Source: Gammaproteobacteria bacterium (GTDB taxonomy: Bacteria > Pseudomonadota > Gammaproteobacteria > Enterobacterales > Neiellaceae). From it: 64,000 nucleotides of DNA. Positions 1 to 54,475 of the stretch are shown here, piece by piece. Location: NCBI GenBank assembly GCA_017425245.1, contig JAFOOX010000036.1:1-64000 (forward strand), written 5' to 3'. Positions within the stretch are counted from its first letter, which is position 1; each line of letters begins with the position of its first letter. Under the pieces are notes generated by a model. It was given only the letters and a program-made list of their open reading frames with translations, was not told the origin of the DNA and did not search any database. A program made the position numbers and the translations under genes.

Positions 1-258
1 CAGCGCTGCGGCACGCTCGGTGTCCAGCCGCACCACCAGATGGTAGTGGTTGGCCATCACCGCATAAGCGCCTAGGTCGATGGTGAAGATCTCACTCAAT
101 AGCGCCAACCGCTCTAACACCCAAGCCTTACGGTGGCTGTAATCATTGCCAGTCAGGCGGTCTTCACCGCACAGAAACGCCCGCCGCACGCAGCGACAAA
201 CGCAGTGATACCAAGGGGTGGCAGCAGGGCAAACAAGCTCAGAACGGGGGCGGGTCAT
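1..258 (-). CDS. REP-associated tyrosine transposase (RAYT / Y1_Tnp), 3' part outside window
   Basis: Reading leftward from the ATG at 258, 86 codons run off the window edge without a stop. The visible protein begins MTRPRSELVCPAATPWYH and contains VMANHYHLVV, the HUH-type motif (two histidines around a hydrophobic) of the IS200/IS605-like Y1 transposases in the RAYT subfamily. These enzymes process single-stranded REP hairpins and are usually domesticated single-copy genes. The catalytic tyrosine would lie beyond the edge and cannot be checked. The N-terminal 'PWYHCVCRCV' stretch fits the usual RAYT start. REP hairpins occur elsewhere in this window (19122, 51023, 51450, 51590, 54489), so this is a plausible source enzyme, though that link is inference. 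Confidence 0.85.
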   Translation of the reverse strand, partial: MTRPRSELVCPAATPWYHCVCRCVRRAFLCGEDRLTGNDYSHRKAWVLERLALLSEIFTIDLGAYAVMANHYHLVVRLDTERAAAL

Positions 259-303
259 GGGCTTCCTCCATGAAGCGCAATCAGGGCCTGCTTAGCTTAG
301 CCA

Positions 304-410
304 CTGGTTGATTTTTGGCCAGAAAAGATGGATGTCCTTTTAGTTCGCTGGTTGATTTTTGGCCAGAAAAGATGGATGTCCTTTTAGTTCGGCTGCTTTT
401 AGTTCGGCTG
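304..410. repeat. Nested tandem duplications (44 bp x2, then 15 bp x2) at 5' end of hydrolase gene
   Basis: A 44-bp unit at 304-347 is repeated exactly at 348-391. The end of the second copy starts a further exact 15-bp tandem duplication, 381-395 and 396-410 (CTTTTAGTTCGGCTG). Neither 44 nor the total is a multiple of three, so the duplications change the reading frame upstream of the hydrolase. They look like recent slippage or repair products. Confidence 0.9.
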
Positions 411-1085
411 TTCGATGCCAGCCGTAACCGTCAGGTGCCGGTCACCCTGTACTGGCCCGCCAGCCGCGATTGCAGCCCGCACCAGCCTTGCCCGGTGGCA
501 CTGCTGAGTTCCGGCTATGGCGTGGCCCACGATCGCTATGGCTTTATCGCGGCCAGCCTGCAGCAGGCCGGCTATCTGGTGGTGGCGATCCAGCATGAGT
601 TACCCGGCGACCCGCCGCTGGCCACCAGCGGCAAGCTGTTTGAACGCCGCCAGGAGAACTGGCAGCGCGGCGCCCTGACCCTCGCCTTTGTGCGGGCCAC
701 CCTCGCCGACCGCTATCCCGGGTATGACTTCGACCGGCTGACCCTGATCGGCCACTCCAATGGCGGTGACATCTCGGCATGGCTGGCAGCCAGCAACGCG
801 CCTTACATCAGCCGCCTAATCACCCTCGACCATCGCCGGGTGCCGCTGCCACGCAACCCCGCCATCACCATGCTGTCACTGCGCGGCAGCGACTTAGCGC
901 CAGATGCCGGGGTACTGCCCGCCGCCAACGAGCAGCCCGGCCTGCGGCTGTGCGTGGTGCCGATCCGCCACGCCCGCCATAACGACATGACCGATGCAGG
1001 CCCCCGCTGGCTGCAGGCCACCATCGTCACCCGCCTCAGTGGCCATCTGGCCGGGGTGGATTGCGCCCTGCTACGCGGCCTCTAA
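372..1085 (+). CDS. Alpha/beta hydrolase, probably 5'-damaged
   Basis: The 237-residue product is an alpha/beta hydrolase. It has the nucleophile elbow GHSNGG in mid-protein and a late histidine region (RHARHNDMTD) that could supply the catalytic His. The substrate is unknown. Family members normally carry a signal peptide before the 'VRLFDASRNR' strand. Here that region is replaced by repeated MDVLLVRLLLVRLFD sequence made by tandem duplications at 304-410, so the native N-terminus seems lost or rewritten. ATG 372 is used here; TTG 315 would add 19 residues encoded by the duplicated unit. No clear ribosome-binding site precedes either start. The gene may be a pseudogene, or may still make a cytoplasmic protein. 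The body (from about residue 15) is intact, with no internal stop. Confidence 0.65.
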   Translation: MDVLLVRLLLVRLFDASRNRQVPVTLYWPASRDCSPHQPCPVALLSSGYGVAHDRYGFIAASLQQAGYLVVAIQHELPGDPPLATSGKLFERRQENWQRGALTLAFVRATLADRYPGYDFDRLTLIGHSNGGDISAWLAASNAPYISRLITLDHRRVPLPRNPAITMLSLRGSDLAPDAGVLPAANEQPGLRLCVVPIRHARHNDMTDAGPRWLQATIVTRLSGHLAGVDCALLRGL

Positions 1086-1099
1086 CGGCCCGCGTTATG

Positions 1100-1505
1100 C
1101 GGTCCACGCCCCCAATCTGGCGCAGCTGCACTAGCGACAGGCCCACTGCACGGCAGATGCGGCTACGCCGCAGGCATGCCACTGCGTGGCGGCAGAATGC
1201 GAGGCTGACCGCCTCGCGCTGGGGCAGCGTTAATGCCGCTGCGCGGCAGATGCGGCTGCGCCGCTGCAAGCGAGGTTGCCCACCTCGCGCTGGGGCAGAG
1301 GGGCGTATCGCCACGCCCCTCTGCACACCCGGGCGCCCCCAAGTCCACCACCATCAAGATCTGGCTGGTGTTCTGCCGGGCTACGGGGTCGCCACAAAGT
1401 CACATCCCTGTGCCTTAGTGGCTTTCGTCGCCGTCCAGGCGACTCACCCCCTACACCCGACTAACCGTGGGTTGGCTGGCGTGATTGCGGGTGGTGGGCA
1501 AGGGG
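1100..1505 (-). repeat. Structured modular repeat, copy 1
   Basis: Read on the minus strand, this copy starts near 1505 with CCCCTTGCCCACCACCCGC. It has the core hairpin P1 at 1427-1443 (stem GTCGCC/GGCGAC), a second hairpin P3 at 1401-1412 (CACA/TGTG around GGGA) inside a GCCAC/GTGGC stem, then the long hairpin P4 at 1295-1324 (stem of 12 bp, GCAGAGGGGCGT). A tail follows in which GCGAGG-type and GCGGC-type hairpins repeat. It fills the gap between the hydrolase and the ATPase. No credible coding sequence is present. Confidence 0.85.
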
Positions 1506-1519
1506 TACCTTTGTCCCAT

Positions 1520-4144
1520 TCAGCGCCTTTGCAGAACATCAAGCGCGTCATCCAACATGGCGACCGACTTGACGATGGCCCTCACGGTGGCACGGTCGAA
1601 CTCGTGGTCGAGCCGCGAGTCATGCGTCCCCCGGTTGAGATAGCCCCACTCAATGCTGGTGCCGCTCACATTGAGAAGAGCCGTGAGTGCGGCGACCGCC
1701 TGTGGGGCACCATCGTATTGTGCCGCGATCCGGTCGACTGCCGATCGCAACTTGCAGCACTTGTTGTTCAACTCCCAAGGAGAGCGTGGTCCACCCAGCT
1801 TGATGTCGATCCGACCGTCCCCTCGCCGTCCTAACCATGTCCACAGGCGGTCAGTAAGACTTTCCAGTGCAGGCCGGGCATGGCGCAGCGCCTCACGCTT
1901 CTCGTCGGCCGCTAGCGCCTGCTCGGCAAGCAGAACGTAGTTCTTCGTGGGGGGATCACTGTCTACCCGCAGCTCGTGCTCCCCTTGATGCGGTAGGAAC
2001 TTGTAGCGCTTAATGGCACCGACTCGCTTGGCCCCTAACTCCTGTTGGATGCGATGCAGGAACTCCTCTGCGTGCGAGGTAAGAATGACCTGCTTGCCGT
2101 CGAGCCAACCGTCCTCGAAGAATGTGCGCCAGATGCCATCGCGGTGATCGTCGTCAATCGCGTTGACGACGTCATCGAAGATGACCACGGGGCAGCCCTG
2201 TGAGATGTTCTTGGCGAGCAGAATCGCAAGACCCAAGCATTTGATGTGCCCTTCGCTGAAGACGATCAGTGCGTCGTAGCGCACGCCCGGCTCGCTGGAG
2301 AACTCCACCTCGATCTTGCCGTTCTCTGCCACAGGCAACCAAAGCGCGTGCAGCAGATCGCCGGGCGGATCGGCCCGGTTGAATTCGTTGTACAGATCGC
2401 GGGCCAGTTCTCCCAGTCCCTGCAGTAGCACACCCGGCAAAGCTGCTAGATAGGCCTGGATCTCGGGCAAAAAGCCGTCGTATGCGGTCTTGATCCGTTG
2501 ATGGTGGGCCACCACCGGCACTTCGGCCGCGACCGCCTGGATCAGGTAGCTGTTCGCTTCTTCGAACTCGGCCACGGTCTGACTGGCGGCAGCCAGCTCC
2601 TGATCGGCCGTCACACGCATAACCCGCAGCCGTTCGATCTCCAGCTGATGCTGCTGCAGCCGGTCGCGTTCATGGGCCAGCGCACCTCGCTGCGCATGCA
2701 CTTCTCGAGCCTGCGCGTCGAGGCCTTCGATGGTCTCTGCGATCTGCAACAGGGCTTGCCAGGCGCGCCGTTCCCCATCAATCCACTGACCGAGCCAATT
2801 GCCCGCAGCGGTGGGAGGCAGCAGCGGCAGGTCCGCGGCCTGCAGCTCGGCTGGACAGGCGATCTCAGCCGCCGCCACGACACGGCGCATCTCGTCCCAG
2901 AGCGAACGGACAGCTTCGTTCAATTGCGTCCTAAGATTGGCATCTTGCTTTTGAAGGTCAGCCAGTTGCGCGAGCTGCTCCAAGCCGGTTCGTGCTTTGT
3001 CGAACGGGTCTTGGGCCACGGAGGCCAGTCCAGTTCCACAGGCTGGGCAAGCGATCGCACCGTCGGCCAGGGCCAGCACTGCCTCGTAGAGCTTCGCGTA
3101 CGACACTTCGCCGGCACGGGCCGCAAGTTGCGCGGAAGACGCCTGCAACAACTCCTGGAGGCGGTAGGCATCGGCCAGTAATGCCTCCAAGCGGGCCTGG
3201 GTCACCCCGTGAATGCTAGGTGGCGCTGCGTCTAACTGTGCCTGCACATCAGGCAGCCGCCCAATTTGCTGCGGCGTACCGAGCAGCCACTCCACGCAGG
3301 CCTGATAAGTCGCGCCGGGCAGCATGCGCTGCGCCAAGGCTTGCTCCAGGGCTTCGACCGCTGCAACCTTTTGCGGGTGTGCGGCAATGGTCTGCTCGGA
3401 GTTCGCCAACAGAAGGCGGCGCTGCGCTAGCTGCGCCGCCTGGATGCCGGTAAGCATCAGGTCCTGGTCGAGCGAGGGGTTGAAGCCACGCACGAATTCG
3501 CTGAACTGGTCCACGCCGAACAGGGTTGCGATGAGTTGGCGCTGATCACCCGGGGTCCTTGCGGCAATGCGTGCGAAGTCGTCCAGGCGATTCTTCTCGA
3601 TAAAGCAGAAGCGGTACTCGGCTTCGTCGGGCTGGACTACCTGCGCTTCGTCTCCCACCTTGAACGACAGGGCTGGCGCAACATGTCGGCGCAAGCGAGC
3701 GTTGTTGCAATACAGCCGCTGGTCGAGCCGCTTGGCCTGGGCTTCGCTAATCGAACCAAGCATCGCTACTTCCAAGGCCTCGCAGAAGCTGCTTTTGCCG
3801 GTTCCATTGGCTCCGTAGACCAAGGTGATGTCATGGCTGAGGTCGAACGTCTCCTGTCGCATGAACCCGCGAAACGGCCCAACTTCGAGCTGATGAAGCC
3901 TACCAAGTGCCGACCCGGCTTCAGGGCCGCGACCGTCCCCGGCGTACTCGACGGGCATCTGCGCCAGATTATCGATGGTTAGCGGCGCTAAGCGCGTGGA
4001 TCGCCCGCGTCGTGCTGCACCCACCTCGGCCAAAGGCTCTAGGTGGTCAAGCACCAGATTCGCCAGCCGGCGCACATCATCGTGCACCTGCCGCTGCGCT
4101 AGGTGTTCCAAGAAACGGTGGTACTCCGAATGAATGCTTGCCAT
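1520..4144 (-). CDS. Rad50/RecF-like AAA ATPase with zinc-hook CxxC, putative defence protein
   Basis: This 874-residue protein has a split ABC/SMC-type ATPase head. Walker A is GANGTGKS (residues 111-118). A signature-like SEGHIKCLGL lies near 630-640, Walker B is PVVIFDD (652-658), and the switch-like TSHAEE is near 689. Between them are predicted coiled arms of about 250 residues with a CPAC tetrad at 366-369, placed like the zinc hook of Rad50 and RloC. After the head is an extra C-terminal domain (about 710-874) ending with LNRGTHDSRLDHEFDR. Similar tails occur on defence-type SMC-like ATPases, but I cannot assign an enzymatic activity to it. A good ribosome-binding site (GAGGGGTG) precedes ATG 4144. 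The gene stands alone between two inverted repeat copies. A role in phage or DNA defence is inferred from architecture and setting; DNA repair is the alternative. Confidence 0.8.
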   Translation of the reverse strand: MASIHSEYHRFLEHLAQRQVHDDVRRLANLVLDHLEPLAEVGAARRGRSTRLAPLTIDNLAQMPVEYAGDGRGPEAGSALGRLHQLEVGPFRGFMRQETFDLSHDITLVYGANGTGKSSFCEALEVAMLGSISEAQAKRLDQRLYCNNARLRRHVAPALSFKVGDEAQVVQPDEAEYRFCFIEKNRLDDFARIAARTPGDQRQLIATLFGVDQFSEFVRGFNPSLDQDLMLTGIQAAQLAQRRLLLANSEQTIAAHPQKVAAVEALEQALAQRMLPGATYQACVEWLLGTPQQIGRLPDVQAQLDAAPPSIHGVTQARLEALLADAYRLQELLQASSAQLAARAGEVSYAKLYEAVLALADGAIACPACGTGLASVAQDPFDKARTGLEQLAQLADLQKQDANLRTQLNEAVRSLWDEMRRVVAAAEIACPAELQAADLPLLPPTAAGNWLGQWIDGERRAWQALLQIAETIEGLDAQAREVHAQRGALAHERDRLQQHQLEIERLRVMRVTADQELAAASQTVAEFEEANSYLIQAVAAEVPVVAHHQRIKTAYDGFLPEIQAYLAALPGVLLQGLGELARDLYNEFNRADPPGDLLHALWLPVAENGKIEVEFSSEPGVRYDALIVFSEGHIKCLGLAILLAKNISQGCPVVIFDDVVNAIDDDHRDGIWRTFFEDGWLDGKQVILTSHAEEFLHRIQQELGAKRVGAIKRYKFLPHQGEHELRVDSDPPTKNYVLLAEQALAADEKREALRHARPALESLTDRLWTWLGRRGDGRIDIKLGGPRSPWELNNKCCKLRSAVDRIAAQYDGAPQAVAALTALLNVSGTSIEWGYLNRGTHDSRLDHEFDRATVRAIVKSVAMLDDALDVLQRR

Positions 4145-4284: not shown

Positions 4285-4655
4285 GCCTACCTTATAAGCT
4301 GCGCAGTAAATGTGAACGCGTGTCAAATCAGTGCTGCGGCTCGCGCTCCCACCCCGTTTGAGCAGTGGCGGAACCACATCGCAGCCAAACACGGCATTGG
4401 GGCTGGTGGTGGGTCGAGGGGACAGGAAGTCACCGAGAGCGAGCCCGGCACAGGGATGTGCCGTCGAGCGGCCCACCGGCAGCACCGGAACAGGCCACTA
4501 GCATCAATAGCGCTGCTCTACCGGGCCGCCGGTGGGTGCAGGGAGGCCGTGCGGAAACGGCCTTCCTGCTCGTCGTGGAGGGGGCGAAACCCCTCCATCC
4601 GCTGCCACGCAGTGGCAAATCTGCTGCGGCGCATCAGCCAACGCAGCGAGCCTCA
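4285..4655 (+). repeat. Structured modular repeat, copy 2
   Basis: The left end is CCTACCTTATAAG at 4286, shared with copies 5 and 7. A module with GTTTGAGCAGTGGCGG follows. The gamma-type core has GGGGAC-AGGAA-GTCACC (one mismatch in the stem) and a CGGCACA-GGGA-TGTGCCG hairpin. P4 near 4535-4565 has a GCAGGGAGGCCGT stem. P5 is GGAGGGG-GCGA-AACCCCTCC, with a GNRA-type loop. It occupies the space between the ATPase and the lipoprotein gene. Confidence 0.85.
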
Positions 4656-5095: not shown

Positions 5096-5790
5096 TCCCC
5101 CACCCCGTTTGAGCAGCGCCAAGATCACGCAGCAGCCAAACACAGCATCGGGGCTGGTGGTGGGTCGACGCCGAGGACATCCATTCGGAGAACAGCGGCA
5201 GCGCAGTCTTCCGATCACCTCGAGCACCACCCGCACGGCGCTAAGCCTACGCACTGCCAGTCGGCCGTAGGGGTTGAGGCAACAGGACGTTGCCGAAAGC
5301 CACTATGGGCCAGGGACGGCACATTGTGGCGACCCCCTAGGCCGGCAGGACTACAGCCATACATTAATGGTGGTGATCGCGGGGGCCGGCTGGAGGGGTC
5401 GACGCCGAGGACATCCATTCGGAGAACAGCGGCAGCGCAGTCTTCCGATCCCCTCGATCACCACCCGCACGGCGGTAAGCCAACGCTCAACCAGACGGCC
5501 GTAGGGGTTGAGGCAACAGGACGTTGCCGAAAGCCACTATGGGCCAGGGACGGCACATTGTGGCGACCCCGTAGGCCGGCAGGACTACAGCCATACATTA
5601 ATGGTGGTGATCGCGGGGGCCGGCTGGAGGTGCAGGAGGAGGGTCCGGCTACCCTCCTCCTGCCCGTCGCGCGGGGGCGGCACCCCGCATCCGGGCGGCG
5701 CAGCCGCAATCTAGCACCACGCAGTGGCATCCGCGCAGCCCAGCCGCCCCCCAATCTGGCGCAGCTGCACCAGCAACAGGCGCGCTAGAG
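5096..5790 (+). repeat. Structured modular repeat, copy 3, with a 234-bp internal tandem duplication
   Basis: A 234-bp unit (5164-5397) is repeated nearly identically at 5398-5631. Each unit holds a GTCGACGCCGAGGACATCC module, the alpha core P1 (GGCAAC-AGGAC-GTTGCC, first at 5278-5294, second at 5512-5528) and the GCCAC/GTGGC stem. Only the second unit is followed by P4 (GCAGGAGGAGGGT stem, about 5632-5663) and the tail hairpins. The insides differ by only a few bases, so the duplication is recent. Short open frames through it follow the repeat and are not genes. Confidence 0.9.
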
Positions 5791-19121: not shown

Positions 19122-19148
19122 CCGTTCGCCCTGAGCCTGTCGAAGGGC
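19122..19148 (+). repeat. REP-type palindrome
   Basis: TTCGCCCTGAGCCTGTCGAA followed by GGGC forms a short stem (GCCCT/AGGGC). The same sequence recurs at 51023, 51450, 51590 and, inverted, at 54489. It is a REP sequence common in proteobacteria and a likely substrate of RAYT proteins such as the one at 1-258. Confidence 0.85.
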
Positions 19149-19169: not shown

Positions 19170-19517
19170 GAACAAGATCCGCCGCTGCGCGGCGGCAGAT
19201 GCCAACTGCGTTGGCGATGCGGGAATGCGGCTGCGCCGCACGGCGTTAAGACAAATCGCTGTGGCGATTTGGGTAAGAGCGCCGACTGGCCGGCGCTGGC
19301 CAGGTAAGGGCCGGACCCGCCCGGCCCTTACCAATCCCGGCGGCCCCCAAGCCCACCACCATCCAGATCTGGCTGATGTTCTGCCGGCCTACGGGGTCGC
19401 CACAATGTGCCCTCCATGGCCCATAGTGGCTCTCGGCAACGTCCTGTTGCCTCGCCCCCTACGCCCGACTGGCCGTGGGTTGACTGGCGTGGGTGCGGGT
19501 GGTGGGCAAGGGGGGAG
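19170..19517 (-). repeat. Structured modular repeat, copy 4
   Basis: On the minus strand it begins near 19517 with CCCCTTGCCCACCACCCGC, as copy 1 does. The alpha core has GGCAAC-AGGAC-GTTGCC, then GCCAC/GTGGC enclosing a GGCCATGGA loop. P4 is the GGTAAGGGCCGG-GCGGGT type. The tail holds an AAATCGC-CACA-GCGATTT hairpin and GCGGC hairpins. It fills the gap between the urea operon and the integron cassettes; the attC at 19566 lies 50 bp beyond its 5' end. Confidence 0.88.
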
Positions 19518-19649: not shown

Positions 19650-21092
19650 TCAACTGGTGCTTAATTCCAGCTCGTTGAATATTTGCATTGGATCTTCGGG
19701 TTGCAACGCCCAGCGATAAGCAGGGTGAACCTCCCAGTCATAGCCGAATTCGGTAAACTTATTTGATAAGTACCGATTCTCCTCGAAATATTTTCGATCA
19801 ATGCCTGCGGGAGTTTGTTTGCGGGCGGTAATAAAATTAATTTTATAAAGAAATGCAGCCAGCTCTTTAGTTTCAACTTGATTTCCATTAGCCCAACGAA
19901 ACTTTCCTTGCTCCTCAATCATCTTAAGCTTTCTCAGAAGTTGATCTGTGCTGTATACATAACCCTGAGATGCTTTTCTTTGTATTTTTGAAGGGCGCAT
20001 ACCAAGTATCAGTTTTTCTACACCAGGCAGTTCCGAACGATATTCATTAATGGTATCTTGAAGCCGTCCCTGCGAATACTCTTCAAAAATCGACTCCAAG
20101 TTGTCAGTGGATATTTTATCTGAATCGTTAGAATGCGCTTTTCTTCCTGCCAAAGTTAGAAGTTTAACCAAATCTCGCGGCCGCTTTCTAATTAGTGACA
20201 TTAGAACCCTATACATAGGCGCATTACTCCAATGCCCTTTTCCAGTGAATCTTTCCTCAATCACGGGAGTTAGATATTTCATCAACTCGGATTGATGCTT
20301 CTTTAGAAGCTCACCCTCATCAATCAGTCTTCCAAAATAACTCTCTACTCTTTTAACAAGAAGAACCAATATTTCATGGTTAGTCCATGAATACCAGATT
20401 ACCGAACTTTCTGTTTTGTCAGTCGATTCATCAGAAGTCCGAGCCAAATAATAAACATCTGATCGCAAACTAATTCTAAAAAATATCCCTCTATTTTCGG
20501 TAGAAATATCCCGTACGGCGTTAAGGAGTGCTGATATTCTCAGAATGTCGTGCTTTCTCCCTTGCCACCCTCGGTCCAAATCATCTATGTACACTGAAAT
20601 ATTTTTGCTCTTGAGAAAGTCCCTCAGCACAGCTTCTTTAGATGCAGTTAGGCTAAGCTTATCGTCAAGCTTTAATGTTGAAGCAAGAAAATCTAAGGCA
20701 GCACCACCGTATTGGTTCAATTTACCTCGCCAGCCATCAAATAACATGCCGAATGAAGTCAACGCTTTTTTTGCGATAATTTCGTTAATGCCTGTCTTCC
20801 AGTCCCTGATAAGCCTTAGAAAATCATCCGTTTCTTCGCCAATGCCAATAATGTCATCAGGCTTAATCAAAAGCGTGAGCCTATTGTTTTCTGCCTCCTC
20901 ATCAATTGCGACCTGAAAAAGAGCTGACTTCCCAATCCCCTTGTGTCCCACGAGTATTCGTAATGGCAGATCATTTACAACCTGCTTATAGGCCTTACTC
21001 TTAAAGTAATACTCTTTAAGCCTTGTGGGATCTTCATCTTCAGCAGCCTCATGGCCAAATAGTTTTTGCAGTTCGTATTCACTAAAATCCAT
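19650..21092 (-). CDS. P-loop ATPase, Sll1717-like, in an integron cassette
   Basis: This 480-residue protein has Walker A GHKGIGKS (49-56) and Walker B SVYIDDLDR (166-174). It is followed by a STAND/KAP-like helical region with charged motifs such as IRKRPRDLVKLL. Its N-terminus (FSEYELQKLFGHEAAEDEDP) fits the Sll1717-type P-loop ATPases often found in defence islands. The actual function is unknown. The gene is strikingly AT-rich beside its GC-rich neighbours and uses A/T-ending codons, a sign of transfer. It is bounded by attC sites at 19566 and 21128, so it is a gene cassette, not part of the urea region. No promoter was found within the cassette. Confidence 0.82.
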   Translation of the reverse strand: MDFSEYELQKLFGHEAAEDEDPTRLKEYYFKSKAYKQVVNDLPLRILVGHKGIGKSALFQVAIDEEAENNRLTLLIKPDDIIGIGEETDDFLRLIRDWKTGINEIIAKKALTSFGMLFDGWRGKLNQYGGAALDFLASTLKLDDKLSLTASKEAVLRDFLKSKNISVYIDDLDRGWQGRKHDILRISALLNAVRDISTENRGIFFRISLRSDVYYLARTSDESTDKTESSVIWYSWTNHEILVLLVKRVESYFGRLIDEGELLKKHQSELMKYLTPVIEERFTGKGHWSNAPMYRVLMSLIRKRPRDLVKLLTLAGRKAHSNDSDKISTDNLESIFEEYSQGRLQDTINEYRSELPGVEKLILGMRPSKIQRKASQGYVYSTDQLLRKLKMIEEQGKFRWANGNQVETKELAAFLYKINFITARKQTPAGIDRKYFEENRYLSNKFTEFGYDWEVHPAYRWALQPEDPMQIFNELELSTS

Positions 21093-21127
21093 ATCTCATA
21101 CTCTTCAAAGGTACTGAGTTCAAAGGC

Positions 21128-21188
21128 TTCTAACGCCCGCGTCATAAGCGCGAGATTACGAGCGTCCTAATTGACGCGATTGTTAGCA
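21128..21188 (-). other. Integron attC site of the KAP NTPase cassette
   Basis: On the minus strand it reads GCTAACAAT-CGCGTCA ... TGACGCG-GGCGTTAGAAGC. The CTAAC/GTTAG boxes are inverted and the CGCGTCA/TGACGCG arms pair perfectly over seven bases. The AAT/GGC asymmetry equals that of the site at 19566. Only 2-3 bp separate it from the stop of the NTPase gene at 21191, the usual compact cassette arrangement. Confidence 0.87.
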
Positions 21189-21190
21189 GT

Positions 21191-22591
21191 TCACGCCTCA
21201 AATCTAGAAGCGATTTCAATTTTCTTTAGTAAGTAACCCAAAGAACCAATGCCGCCGTTCCAGTCAAAATCATTGATAATTTCCAATATTCTTTGAGCTC
21301 GTTGTTTTTCTTCTTTGCTTGAGGAATCGGAACCTATTACTTCTTGATATTTATTCGATATTTCATCGTAACTATGGCTGTGTGATTTGCAAGTAACGAT
21401 ATATGCCTCTAGCGCTGTGCCATAATTAGTCAAAAGCAAATCTGTGGCGCCAGGTTGTGTCATAAACCTTTCCAGCAGTTCAAATACATTGATCTCATCA
21501 GAAATCAATTCCTTGTACAAGTCTGGCAATTTGACTTTCAATACAATGAGGAAGCAAAGAAAAAGGGGGAACAGCTTATAGTTTTCAGGTGTTGTTCTGA
21601 TGGAAAGACTAAGAAGTGAACAGCAGTGCTCTTGCTCACGTAGCGTTAAGCTATACAGCTCAAAAAGCTCCGAGAACATCTTTAAAGACTGCTCGCCTTC
21701 GTACTGAACTCCTCCTGCATTCTTCTTTGAAAAATACTCATTAAACGAATATTTCTTGAACAAGGCTTTTACAAAAACCCCTTTGTCCGGAGGAGGGAGA
21801 ATATAATCAAAGTCCATAAATCTTCGCAAGTAGCCGTTTACATTCAGCCCTTCACCATAAATTGCTCTGATAGATGAGCCCAGTTGCTTTTTGTCCGCAC
21901 CAAGAACAAAGACAATGTTGTCTACGTTAAAGAAGTGTTTTGCTTTTTCCAGAATCTCAATTGCAAAGTTTGGCCTGCAGCGATCAAGTTCATCGATAAT
22001 AAAAACCAGTGGTTTAGGGTTGTCTGGGTCGGTTGTACTACTTGCTAGCTGGGATATGGCCTTCCGAAATGACTTTATAGACTTCTTGGAGTTTTCGTAC
22101 CTCTCTATCTGTTCTTTTGCTATCGACTCGGCGAGCCCTGCAAGAGCCTGTTCAGTAACCTTATCGAGATCCAGTGCGCCAGCCGTTGCAATCTTTGCAG
22201 CAACGGGAACTGAGCGTTTTAAAAGTGCAATACCGATATCTTTAGTTTTACCAAGGTATTCTCTAGCTTTCGACTCATCACCGGTTTTTGATAGTTCAGT
22301 TATCGATGCACTTATCTCCCCGATAAGGCATACAAGAGCATCATCAGAAAAATCACTTTCCCAAGCATTGAAGTAGATCGTTGGTACATCGTTATTCTTC
22401 AAATGCTGTTCCCACATCCTAAGGAAAGTGGTTTTTCCTTGTCCCCAAGGAGCATCAATGCAAACAACTACCGAGTCATTTGCAGACAAGACGAACGCTG
22501 TTAAGGCCTCTCCAGTCTCCTTGCGACTCAATGCGTCATTTTTATATGGGTCGTCTTTATTAATTTCAATTTCACGACTTTTTAGTATCAC
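21191..22591 (-). CDS. KAP-family P-loop NTPase in an integron cassette
   Basis: This 466-residue KAP NTPase has Walker A APWGQGKTTF (47-56), Walker B PLVFIIDELDRCRP (194-207), and the family's helical insert between them, including hydrophobic VPVAAKIATAGAL (128-140). KAP proteins are often membrane-linked and occur in antiphage systems, which fits a cassette origin, but this one's function is unknown. GTG 22591 is chosen because GGGAAGAG lies just upstream and the frame beyond it runs through integron-site sequence. AT-rich composition sets it apart from its surroundings. It precedes the second NTPase cassette in the same orientation, so one upstream promoter could serve both. Confidence 0.85.
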   Translation of the reverse strand: MILKSREIEINKDDPYKNDALSRKETGEALTAFVLSANDSVVVCIDAPWGQGKTTFLRMWEQHLKNNDVPTIYFNAWESDFSDDALVCLIGEISASITELSKTGDESKAREYLGKTKDIGIALLKRSVPVAAKIATAGALDLDKVTEQALAGLAESIAKEQIERYENSKKSIKSFRKAISQLASSTTDPDNPKPLVFIIDELDRCRPNFAIEILEKAKHFFNVDNIVFVLGADKKQLGSSIRAIYGEGLNVNGYLRRFMDFDYILPPPDKGVFVKALFKKYSFNEYFSKKNAGGVQYEGEQSLKMFSELFELYSLTLREQEHCCSLLSLSIRTTPENYKLFPLFLCFLIVLKVKLPDLYKELISDEINVFELLERFMTQPGATDLLLTNYGTALEAYIVTCKSHSHSYDEISNKYQEVIGSDSSSKEEKQRAQRILEIINDFDWNGGIGSLGYLLKKIEIASRFEA

Positions 22592-22751
22592 TCGGCTCTT
22601 CCCTTTTACTGCTAACGTTGCCGCCAGCGGCCCGATTGAGTGAAGCCTTTTGGGGTAAAGTGCGAAGCCCCCCAAAAGGCGGAACGAGTGAAGGTCCAGC
22701 GCATGAGCGAAGCAATGCCTAGGACACGCACTCGATACCACGAAAATCAAG

Positions 22752-23115
22752 CCTACCTTATAAGTTTTTCAACAAAATGTGAACACGAGCCAAATCCGGG
22801 CGGCTACTCAATCTGCCACCCCGATTGAGCAGCGGCGAAACCACACCGCAGCAGGCCACGGCATCGGGGCTGGTGGTGGGTCGAGGTGACAGGAAGTCAC
22901 CGAGAGCGAGCCCGGCACAGGGAAGTGCCGTCGAGCGGCACGCCAGCAGCACCGGAACAGGCCATAGGTATCAATAACGCTGCTCTACCGGGCCGGCTGG
23001 TGGTGCAGGAGGAGGGTCCGGCTACCCTCCTCCTGCTCGTCGCGCGGGCGCGAAAGCCCGCATCCGGGCGGCGCAGCCGCAATCTGCCGCGCCGCAGGCG
23101 CATGTCGCCAGTCCT
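22752..23115 (+). repeat. Structured modular repeat, copy 5
   Basis: The left end is CCTACCTTATAAG. The gamma core pairs perfectly (GGTGAC-AGGAA-GTCACC) and continues into CGGCAC-AGGGAA-GTGCCG. P4 is the GCAGGAGGAGGGT type near 23003-23035, as in copy 3. P5 is GCGGGC-GCGAAA-GCCCGC. No gene is visible from the KAP start to 23893. Confidence 0.87.
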
Positions 23116-23184: not shown

Positions 23185-23515
23185 GCCGCAATCCCCCTAC
23201 CCGTTTGAGCAGCGGCGAAACCACACCACAGCAGGCCACGGCATCGGGGCTGGTGGTGGGTCGAGGGGACAGGAGGTCACCGAGAGCGAGCCCGGCACAT
23301 GGATGTGCCGTCGAGCGGCCCAGCAGCAGCACCGGAACAGGCCACAAATCTGGATAGCGCTGCTCTACCGGGCCGCCGGGATTGGTAAGGGCCGGGCGGG
23401 TCCGGCCCTTGCCCGGCCTGCGCCGGCCGGTCGGCGCTCTTATCAAATCGCCAAGCGATTTGTCTTAGCTGCGGCGCAGCCGCAATCTGCCGCCACGCAG
23501 TGGCATCCGGCGGCG
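23185..23515 (+). repeat. Structured modular repeat, copy 6
   Basis: It lacks the CCTACCTTATAAG end and starts with the CCGTTTGAGCAGCGGCG module. The gamma core has one stem mismatch (GGGGAC-AGGAG-GTCACC) and a CACATGGATGTG hairpin. P4 is the GGTAAGGGCCGG-GCGGGT type and the tail has AAATCGC-CAA-GCGATTT. It follows copy 5 in the same direction after a 70-bp linker. Confidence 0.85.
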
Positions 23516-26109: not shown

Positions 26110-26780
26110 TTACCTTACAAGCCGCACAACAAAATGTGAACACGCGCCAAATCCGAGCTGCGGCGCAGTCTCCCACCCCGTTTGAGCAGCGGCGAAACCA
26201 CACCGCAGCAGGCCACGGCTTTCCAAGGACAGCCCCCCCAAAGCCACGGCCGCAGTCTAACCCACCCAGCGACTCAAGAATGCAGCAGCCTTTCACATTC
26301 CCCAAATCGGACATAGCACGAACGCGGTTGTCCACTTTACAACCAGCGGCAGTGCCGTCTTCCCACACCCGTTTGAGCGCCAGCGCAATCACCTAGCCGC
26401 AAGCACTGCCTGCGCGCGGGGTTGCGGGCGAGGCAACAGGACGTTGCCGAGAGCCACTAAGGCACAGGGAAGTGACTTTGTGGCGACCGCAAACCAGTGC
26501 GGAGTAACCAACAACGCCAAACGCTGGCGCTCTACCGGACCGCCGGGATTGGTAAGGGCCGGGCGGGTCCGGCCCTTACCCGGCCTGCGCCGGCCGGTCG
26601 GCGCTCTCACCAAATCGCTTCGCGATTTGTCTTAATGCTCATTCACCGTGAAACGGAGGTTAAGGCCTGCCCGTCGTGGAGGGGGCGGAACCCCTCCATC
26701 TGCTACCACGCAGTGGCATCTGCTGCAGCTACGCACCAGAGTGGCCGTCGCCAAGTCCCTGATCGGCCAGTCGATGAAAT
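26110..26780 (+). repeat. Structured modular repeat, copy 7
   Basis: The left end CTTACCTTACAAG resembles copies 2 and 5. It is longer because a 130-bp unrelated stretch (about 26220-26345) separates the GTTTGAGCAGCGG module from a second GTTTGAGCGCCAG module and the alpha core (GGCAAC-AGGAC-GTTGCC at 26432-26448). P3 is CAC-AGGGA-AGTG. P4 is the GGTAAGGGCCGG-GCGGGT type. The tail has AAATCGC-TTC-GCGATTT and a GGAGGGG-GCGG-AACCCCTCC hairpin. Confidence 0.85.
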
Positions 26781-51169: not shown

Positions 51170-51425
51170 CCGCAGTAGAGCGAGGTTGCCCACCTCGCGC
51201 TGGGGCAGAGGGGCGTAGCGCCACGCCCCTCTGCACACCCGGGCGCCCCCAGCGATCACCACTAACGGGCGTTGGTGGTTGTTCTGCCGGCCTGCGGGAT
51301 CGCCACAAAGGCACCTCCCTGTGCCTTAGTGGCTTTCGGCAACATCCTGTTGCCTCAACCCCTACGGTCGACTGGCCGTGCGTTGTTGTACCCCGTGCTC
51401 GTGGTGATCGAGGGGTGGGGCAGAC
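51170..51425 (-). repeat. Structured modular repeat, copy 8
   Basis: On the minus strand it starts with CCCCTCGATCACCAC near 51422. The alpha core has a compensated loop variant (GGCAAC-AGGAT-GTTGCC) and P3 GGCAC-AGGGA-GGTGCC, a pairing not seen in the other copies. P4 at 51207-51237 is the GCAGAGGGGCGT type of copy 1, followed by GCGAGGT-GGGC-AACCTCGC. Confidence 0.87.
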
Positions 51426-52664: not shown

Positions 52665-53039
52665 CTACCCCCCCGGGCAGCAGACGTAATGCGGCTGCGG
52701 CGCAGACGCAGCAATGCCAACGGCTGTTGGCCGAAGCGCCTGCGGCGCTGGCTGTTGATTTGCCGCTGCGCGGCGGATTCGCCTGCGGCGCCAAGAGTGG
52801 GCTGTCGCGCCCACACGACGAGCTAAGGGAGGGTCGCCGAACCCTCCCTTGGCGAACCCTGTCGGCCCCCAAAGAGCACCACCATCAATATCTGGTTGAC
52901 GTTCTGCCGGGCTACGGGGTCGCCACAATGTGCCATCCATGGCCCATAGTGGCTCTCGGCAACGTCCTGTTGCCTCGCCCCCTTCACCCGACTGGCCGTG
53001 CGTCGGCTTAGCGCCGCGCGGGTGGCGATCAAGGGGGAA
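52665..53039 (-). repeat. Structured modular repeat, copy 10
   Basis: On the minus strand it starts CCCCCTTGATCGCCACCCGC near 53036. The outer stem pairs CCCCCTT with AAGGGGG. The alpha core has GGCAAC-AGGAC-GTTGCC, then GCCAC/GTGGC. P4 is unique (AAGGGAGGGT-TCGGCG-ACCCTCCCTT). P5 is GTGGGC-GCGACA-GCCCAC. The tail holds GGCGCCGCAGGCG-type hairpins up to the parE stop. Confidence 0.87.
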
Positions 53040-54184: not shown

Positions 54185-54475
54185 ACACCCCTTGATCACC
54201 ACCCGCACGGCGCTAGCCGACGCACGGTCTGCCGGGTGAAGGGGTTGAGTCGCCTGGACGGCGACGAAAGCCACTATGGGCCAGGGATGGCACATTGTGG
54301 CGACCCCGTAGCCCGGCAGAACATCAGTCAGGTATTGATGGTGGTGATCTTAGCCCGCCGGAGAGTGCAGGGAGGCCGTGCGGAAACGGCCTTCCTGCTC
54401 GTCGCGCGGGGGCGAAACCCCGCTCCGCTGCGGCGCAGCCGCATCCCGCACCGCAGGTGCATCCGCCCACCCGCT
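54185..54475 (+). repeat. Structured modular repeat, copy 11
   Basis: The left end is CACCCCTTGATCACCACCCGC, pairing with GGTGAAGGGGTTG. The beta core has GTCGCC-TGGAC-GGCGAC as in copy 1, but P3 is GCCA-GGGA-TGGC. P4 is the GCAGGGAGGCCGT type of copy 2. P5 is GCGGGG-GCGAA-ACCCCGC. Confidence 0.88.

Follow-up and report, generated by a model that had tools for sequence, protein, structure and literature searches.

What is the hairpin (P5) that closes the 3' end of a repeated element at 4,352 in this DNA, and what does the element do? The window analysed here, a 64,000-nucleotide stretch of a draft genome (3.45 Mb, 74 contigs), carries several copies (Table 1). A first-pass annotation had described P5 as a hairpin following P4 and a CTCGTCG-like spacer, with a conserved GNRA-type GCGA tetraloop on stems that differ almost completely between copies, and had read this as a sign of a transcribed RNA that makes tertiary contacts.

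The P5 hairpin and its spacer

P5 lies where it had been placed, after P4 and the spacer, and linker and P5 together occurred in 72 of the 121 copies examined from the two species of the genus, which is not due to chance. Its loop is not a tetraloop, as bases had been shifted between stem and loop; the corrected readings are GGAGGGG-GCGAAA-CCCCTCC and GCGGGG-GCGAAA-CCCCGC. The six loop bases read GCGAAA, GCGACA, GCGGAA, GCGGCA or GCAAAA (loop size was set to six in the 72-copy count, and a free search also gave six in nearly all copies). The letters GCGA were kept in 32 of 72 loops (GCGAAA: 27, GCGACA: 5), but the remaining ones were nearly all GCGG (31) or GCAA (4), including those of the window copies at 5448-5620 and 26367-26540. 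The stems do differ strongly between copies with complementarity maintained: across 18 distinct 28-nt modules P5 was 100% paired with 3 compensated pairs, and sliding the partner strand lowered the pairing of the whole structure to 40-52%. The variation is not free, however, as the stems form about six families common to several copies (GTGGAGGGG/CCCCTCCAT: 24, GCGGGC/GCCCGC: 16, GCGGGG/CCCCGC: 14, GTGGGC/GCCCAC: 7, and rarer ones).

What keeps the P5 loop conserved is base pairing with the spacer immediately 5' of the hairpin. In the 72 copies, loop position 4 and linker position 2 were T-A in 37, C-G in 33 and T-G in 2; loop position 3 and linker position 3 were C-G in 68 and T-A in 4; loop position 2 and linker position 4 were G-C in 71 and G-T in 1; and loop position 1 faced linker position 5 as T.G in 68. 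The matched combinations were CTCGTCG with GCGA, CCCGTCG with GCGG and CTTGTCG with GCAA, and one and the same stem, GTGGAGGGG, was seen with both CTC/GCGA and CCC/GCGG. Linker and loop were associated among 24 distinct sequences (Fisher's p 6.7e-5), and in the 18 distinct modules their helix was 98.6% paired with two compensated pairs. Given the order linker, 5' strand of the stem, loop and 3' strand, P5 loop and spacer would form a short H-type pseudoknot or, alternatively, two mutually exclusive helices, a concrete structure to probe.

The loop therefore does make a contact outside its own hairpin, as had been expected, but this covariation identifies the adjacent spacer and no distant receptor as the partner. 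Docking of a GNRA tetraloop to a distant receptor is scarcely credible: the letters GCGA in those 32 loops would suit it, but the hexaloop and the loop-spacer covariation rule out a four-base GNRA reading, GCGG and GCAA variants are frequent, and pairing with the spacer explains the variation.

At the corresponding site in another genus, a simple (T)CGCC-GACAG-GGCG(A) hairpin followed 19 of the 23 elements read. The linker-loop helix thus looks older, and the P5 stem would be a genus-level addition.

Table 1. Positions in the window of the element studied, its parts, further copies and intervening genes
Feature	Positions	Strand	Remarks
TwoAYGGAY-like core (P1, P2, two GGA hairpins)	4352-4526	+	R1 match 152.6 bits; covariation
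P1, 5' strand	4354-4368	+	partner 4509-4523; covariation
GGA hairpin 1	4418-4434	+	loop AGGAA 4424-4428; GGA and C-G closing pair invariant
GGA hairpin 2	4446-4463	+	loop AGGGAT 4452-4457
P4 hairpin	4538-4569	+	13 bp, loop GCGGAA; stem variants in other copies
Linker CTCGTCG	4569-4575	+	T4570-A4587, C4571-G4586, G4572-C4585 and T4573.G4584 pair with P5 loop; covariation
P5 hairpin	4575-4598	+	stem 4575-4583/4590-4598; hexaloop GCGAAA 4584-4589
Core copy	1335-1507	-	5' end turned towards 4352-4526, with gene 1520-4144 in between
Cargo, SMC/AAA ATPase between divergent copies	1520-4144	-	
Partial core copy	5103-5216	+	
Core copy	5214-5386	+	
Core copy	5448-5620	+	P5 loop GCGGCA
Core copy, left border of island 2	19343-19515	-	
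Cargo, two low-GC genes (0.41, 0.42)	19650-22750	-	21191-22750 matches PDC-S20
Core copy	22819-22993	+	P5 = GCGGGC-GCGAAA-GCCCGC
Core copy	23199-23373	+	different 3' module, no linker found
Core copy	26367-26540	+	P5 loop GCGGAA
Core copy, left side of island 3	51246-51417	-	
Core copy	52866-53038	-	central part 42.8 bits with RF01731 (threshold 43)
Core copy	54186-54355	+	P5 = GCGGGG-GCGAAA-CCCCGC

The element core, TwoAYGGAY and CsrA

P5 forms the 3' tail of a roughly 290-nt element. The core of this element consists of an outer stem, an inner stem and two hairpins with GGA loops closed by C-G. A covariance model of this core built from 55 copies (R1) detected 141 cores in this genome and 38 in the sister species, the only other species of the genus in a set of 40 genomes; the remaining relatives in the set yielded none except a weak partial match in another family (4.8e-4). 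All but one of the 121 copies lay outside the genes predicted by our own simple gene caller, and a distant blastn search with two copies as queries gave no plasmid relatives.

P1, the two GGA hairpins, the P5 stem and the spacer-loop pairing are well supported by covariation. In the core, 20 of 31 pairs were compensated and the covariation score was 0.454, compared with 0.150 after shuffling; P1 (12 pairs) was 97-99% paired with eight compensated pairs, and hairpin 1 had four. The GGA loop with its C-G closing pair was found in 121 of 121 copies for one hairpin and 118 of 121 for the other, and 115 of the 121 carried the letters GA/GA at the foot of hairpin 1. The copies are mosaic, with three core types joined to some six kinds of 3' module. 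At window 5695-5733, 23068-23106 and 23471-23509, and behind many P5s, the elements are followed by short hairpins in which differing stems carry a GCAG loop; several of these often stand one after another. Near the islands we also found the repeat CCGTTCGCCCTGAGCCTGTCGAAGGGC (window positions 19122, 51021, 51448 and 51588); in other parts of the genome, a similar sequence immediately precedes some elements. One core copy has a TPP riboswitch (74.7 bits; L010 4671-4779) some 200 bases further downstream.

At gathering score, Rfam gave no match within the window. Below threshold, the TwoAYGGAY model (RF01731; Weinberg et al. 2010, PMC2864571) matched the core of some copies: it hit 40 places in this genome at E<=0.01, the best with 42.8 bits (gathering score: 43), and in the sister species one copy (G001) passed the threshold with 47.3 bits. 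The copy at 4352, whose P5 was studied here, was absent from the matches at E<=0.01. TwoAYGGAY has been an RNA family without an assigned function; a published motif study proposed, by prediction only, that it binds CsrA, and describes a tandem G-A motif in one of its stems (PMC4333381). Our element resembles TwoAYGGAY in its outer stem, inner stem and two adjacent GGA-loop hairpins, and RF01731 copies in another genus follow the same orientation rule and have a tail of P4 plus a short hairpin. In contrast to that family, it is GC-rich, with a genus-specific sequence, 141 copies in this genome and scores of these copies under the gathering score; and where the other genus carries a short CGCC..GGCG hairpin only, it has a P5 stem and a loop-spacer pseudoknot.

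The genome encodes CsrA, and the element's CANGGANG-type loops come in pairs with C-G closure, as in CsrA-binding RNAs. Paired GGA hairpin loops closed by C-G are also a feature of CsrA-sequestering small RNAs of the CsrB/RsmZ type; here, however, each copy has only two GGA hairpins and no terminator, and the copies are scattered over many sites. Matches to RF00018 in the genome were below threshold and at places other than the elements.

We consider it probable that this is a TwoAYGGAY-type structured RNA element, with P5 as its 3'-terminal domain, that lies outward around clusters of foreign genes. Family knowledge and the loop consensus suggest RNA function and CsrA binding: in a transcript, the two C-G-closed GGA hairpins would bind one CsrA dimer, and P4 and the P5 pseudoknot would form a compact, nuclease-resistant 3' end.

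Outward arrays around foreign genes

Neighbouring copies less than 10 kb apart (overlapping pairs left out) were divergent in 29 cases, tandem in 43 and convergent in 6 (6 convergent against 29 divergent: p 1e-4), while in another genus, counted over two genomes, true RF01731 copies gave 9 divergent, 0 convergent and 14 tandem pairs; these counts treat copies as independent and are weakened by shared descent. The excess of divergent over convergent pairs means that clusters read minus...minus, plus...plus, with 5' ends facing the centre. Five divergent pairs were separated by only 41-43 bp. Relative to the upstream gene, 41 copies had the same and 48 the opposite orientation, and without such a bias the element is not a systematic sense UTR. 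Two candidate regularities were discarded: strict left and right end types (A versus B cores), as inner pairs were mostly B/B, and a conserved border sequence, GGACATCC, which occurred in only 16 of 121 copies.

Elements that face outward on both sides, together with host genes outside that tend to converge on the arrays (50:27, p 0.012; in another genus, host genes pointed at the arrays in 6 of 8 loci, p 0.004), could act as insulators shielding host genes from cassette transcription, with P4 and P5 as terminators. This function is unlikely: no U-run follows P4 or P5, the terminator scan was at chance (in the first window cluster, no promoter or terminator signal exceeded chance), and the invariant GGA loops would be left unexplained.

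The genes enclosed by divergent copies differ from those of the host. Their largest ORFs had a mean GC of 0.487 compared with 0.638 for host genes (p 3e-8), and the whole intervals averaged 0.503, 24 of 24 being below the host value of 0.636. PADLOC returned strong matches for the window gene at 21191-22750 (PDC-S20, 8e-167) and, in other cargo of this genome, for PtuA of Septu (2.6e-156), PDC-S31 (twice) and PDC-S60; cargo of other genomes matched Shedu SduA (2.7e-229), Septu/PDC-M01A (1.8e-208), NsnA, Ppl, PDC-S49 and PDC-S20. The same search on 20 host-side proteins gave partial or weak matches only. As the majority of cargo proteins had no defence match, the label "defence" fits part of the cargo. 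A TIGR04141/DUF6119 protein (L322 1-1419) and a HipA-like protein (L028 42-1373) were also found as cargo.

At one host site the two species could be compared. The sister species carries a minus element, cargo X and a plus element. In this genome, the same site holds a minus element, cargo Y (GC 0.36), a plus element that includes P4 and P5, then cargo X (90% identical) and a further plus element. What sets the two species apart is thus a complete unit of one gene plus one element in the middle of the cluster, a single clean case that may be read in either direction. An empty-site comparison via the neighbouring transporter gene was set aside, its homologues being just ~40% identical. Orientation, foreign cargo and this species comparison point to the element as a putative cassette border; as DNA, each copy would be a border unit that is gained or lost with its cassette, a gene plus an element, in the middle of a cluster.

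A more tentative proposal, which we hold to be possible but would not yet favour, is that TwoAYGGAY elements serve as border units in a hitherto unrecognised system for acquiring cassettes. Foreign genes, often anti-phage, would each arrive with one element of their own in the middle of outward arrays between convergent host genes, and this same folded element would tie the new gene to CsrA control. The outward order of TwoAYGGAY copies around foreign cassettes in at least two genera places the family in a genomic context and gives it a role that can be tested; the elements also offer a sequence marker for finding new anti-phage systems. A literature search found no paper tying TwoAYGGAY to gene cassettes or phage defence, which is weak evidence of novelty as most subscription journals were outside the search.

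Transcribed RNA or folded DNA

The first-pass annotation had preferred a transcribed RNA to a DNA-only hairpin. Kinship with RF01731 and GGA loops of the CsrA type favour that view, but no conserved promoter was seen upstream of the elements. Moreover, the stem pairs comprised 1173 Watson-Crick pairs against 12 G-U and 3 A-C; so few G-U pairs are unusual for RNA and count against a transcript. Such near-total Watson-Crick pairing could reflect selection on RNA or on single-stranded DNA.

If selection acts on DNA, the folded single strand might be an integron-like recombination or integration site for foreign cassettes, its folding serving a recombinase. The scarcity of G-U pairs would fit, as would the cassette-like layout with foreign cargo between native borders and an integron integrase inside one element cluster (TIGR02249, 2.5e-114; L332 (C1) 623-1630, minus strand). 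As in integron cassette arrays, every foreign gene comes with a native element of conserved structure, uniform within the genus. However, attC boxes (RYYYAAC...GTTRRRY) occurred in 2 of 121 copies (shuffles: 0.6), so attC is absent, and the arrays run outward both ways from a centre, whereas integron arrays run one way. Of the 94 genomes with RF01731, 56 had an integron integrase, as did 79 of the 201 that lack RF01731; this loose co-occurrence is too weak for a shared machinery, and the GGA loops fit the consensus of an RNA-binding protein. We therefore rate a DNA-level site as rather unlikely.

Still less probable, and in our view very unlikely, is a REP-like mosaic repeat that a Y1 (RAYT) transposase mobilises, with the hairpins as transposase substrates. 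A transposase fragment does lie at window 1-258, the genome has seven such matches, REP-like hairpins occur 3' of P5, and BIME/REP repeats are likewise mosaic and intergenic, with hairpins. The transposase, however, was found in 70 of 197 genomes of the order while close matches to the element were limited to the genus; the flanks of related transposases (30 loci) had no GGA-hairpin clusters outside the genus, and no transposase was found in the sister species (genome 60% complete). There was no association with a Y1 transposase of the kind expected for RAYT/REP repeats, and the element is much longer than BIMEs, bears GGA loops and is ordered outward around foreign genes.

The fragment at window 1-258 (minus strand) is the N-terminal part of a Y1 (REP-associated) transposase, truncated where the contig ends; one of the seven related matches is full-length. 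Adjoining it, at window 300-400, is a tandem repeat with CTGGTTGATTTTTGGCCAG that is possibly the transposase's own REP hairpin. Near related Y1 transposases in another genus (L208 1027 and 2239; L209 100 and 1054), we observed the hairpins AGGGCA-AAGGGAA-TGCCCT and AAGGCA-AAGGGAA-TGCCTT, with a compensated stem and the same loop.
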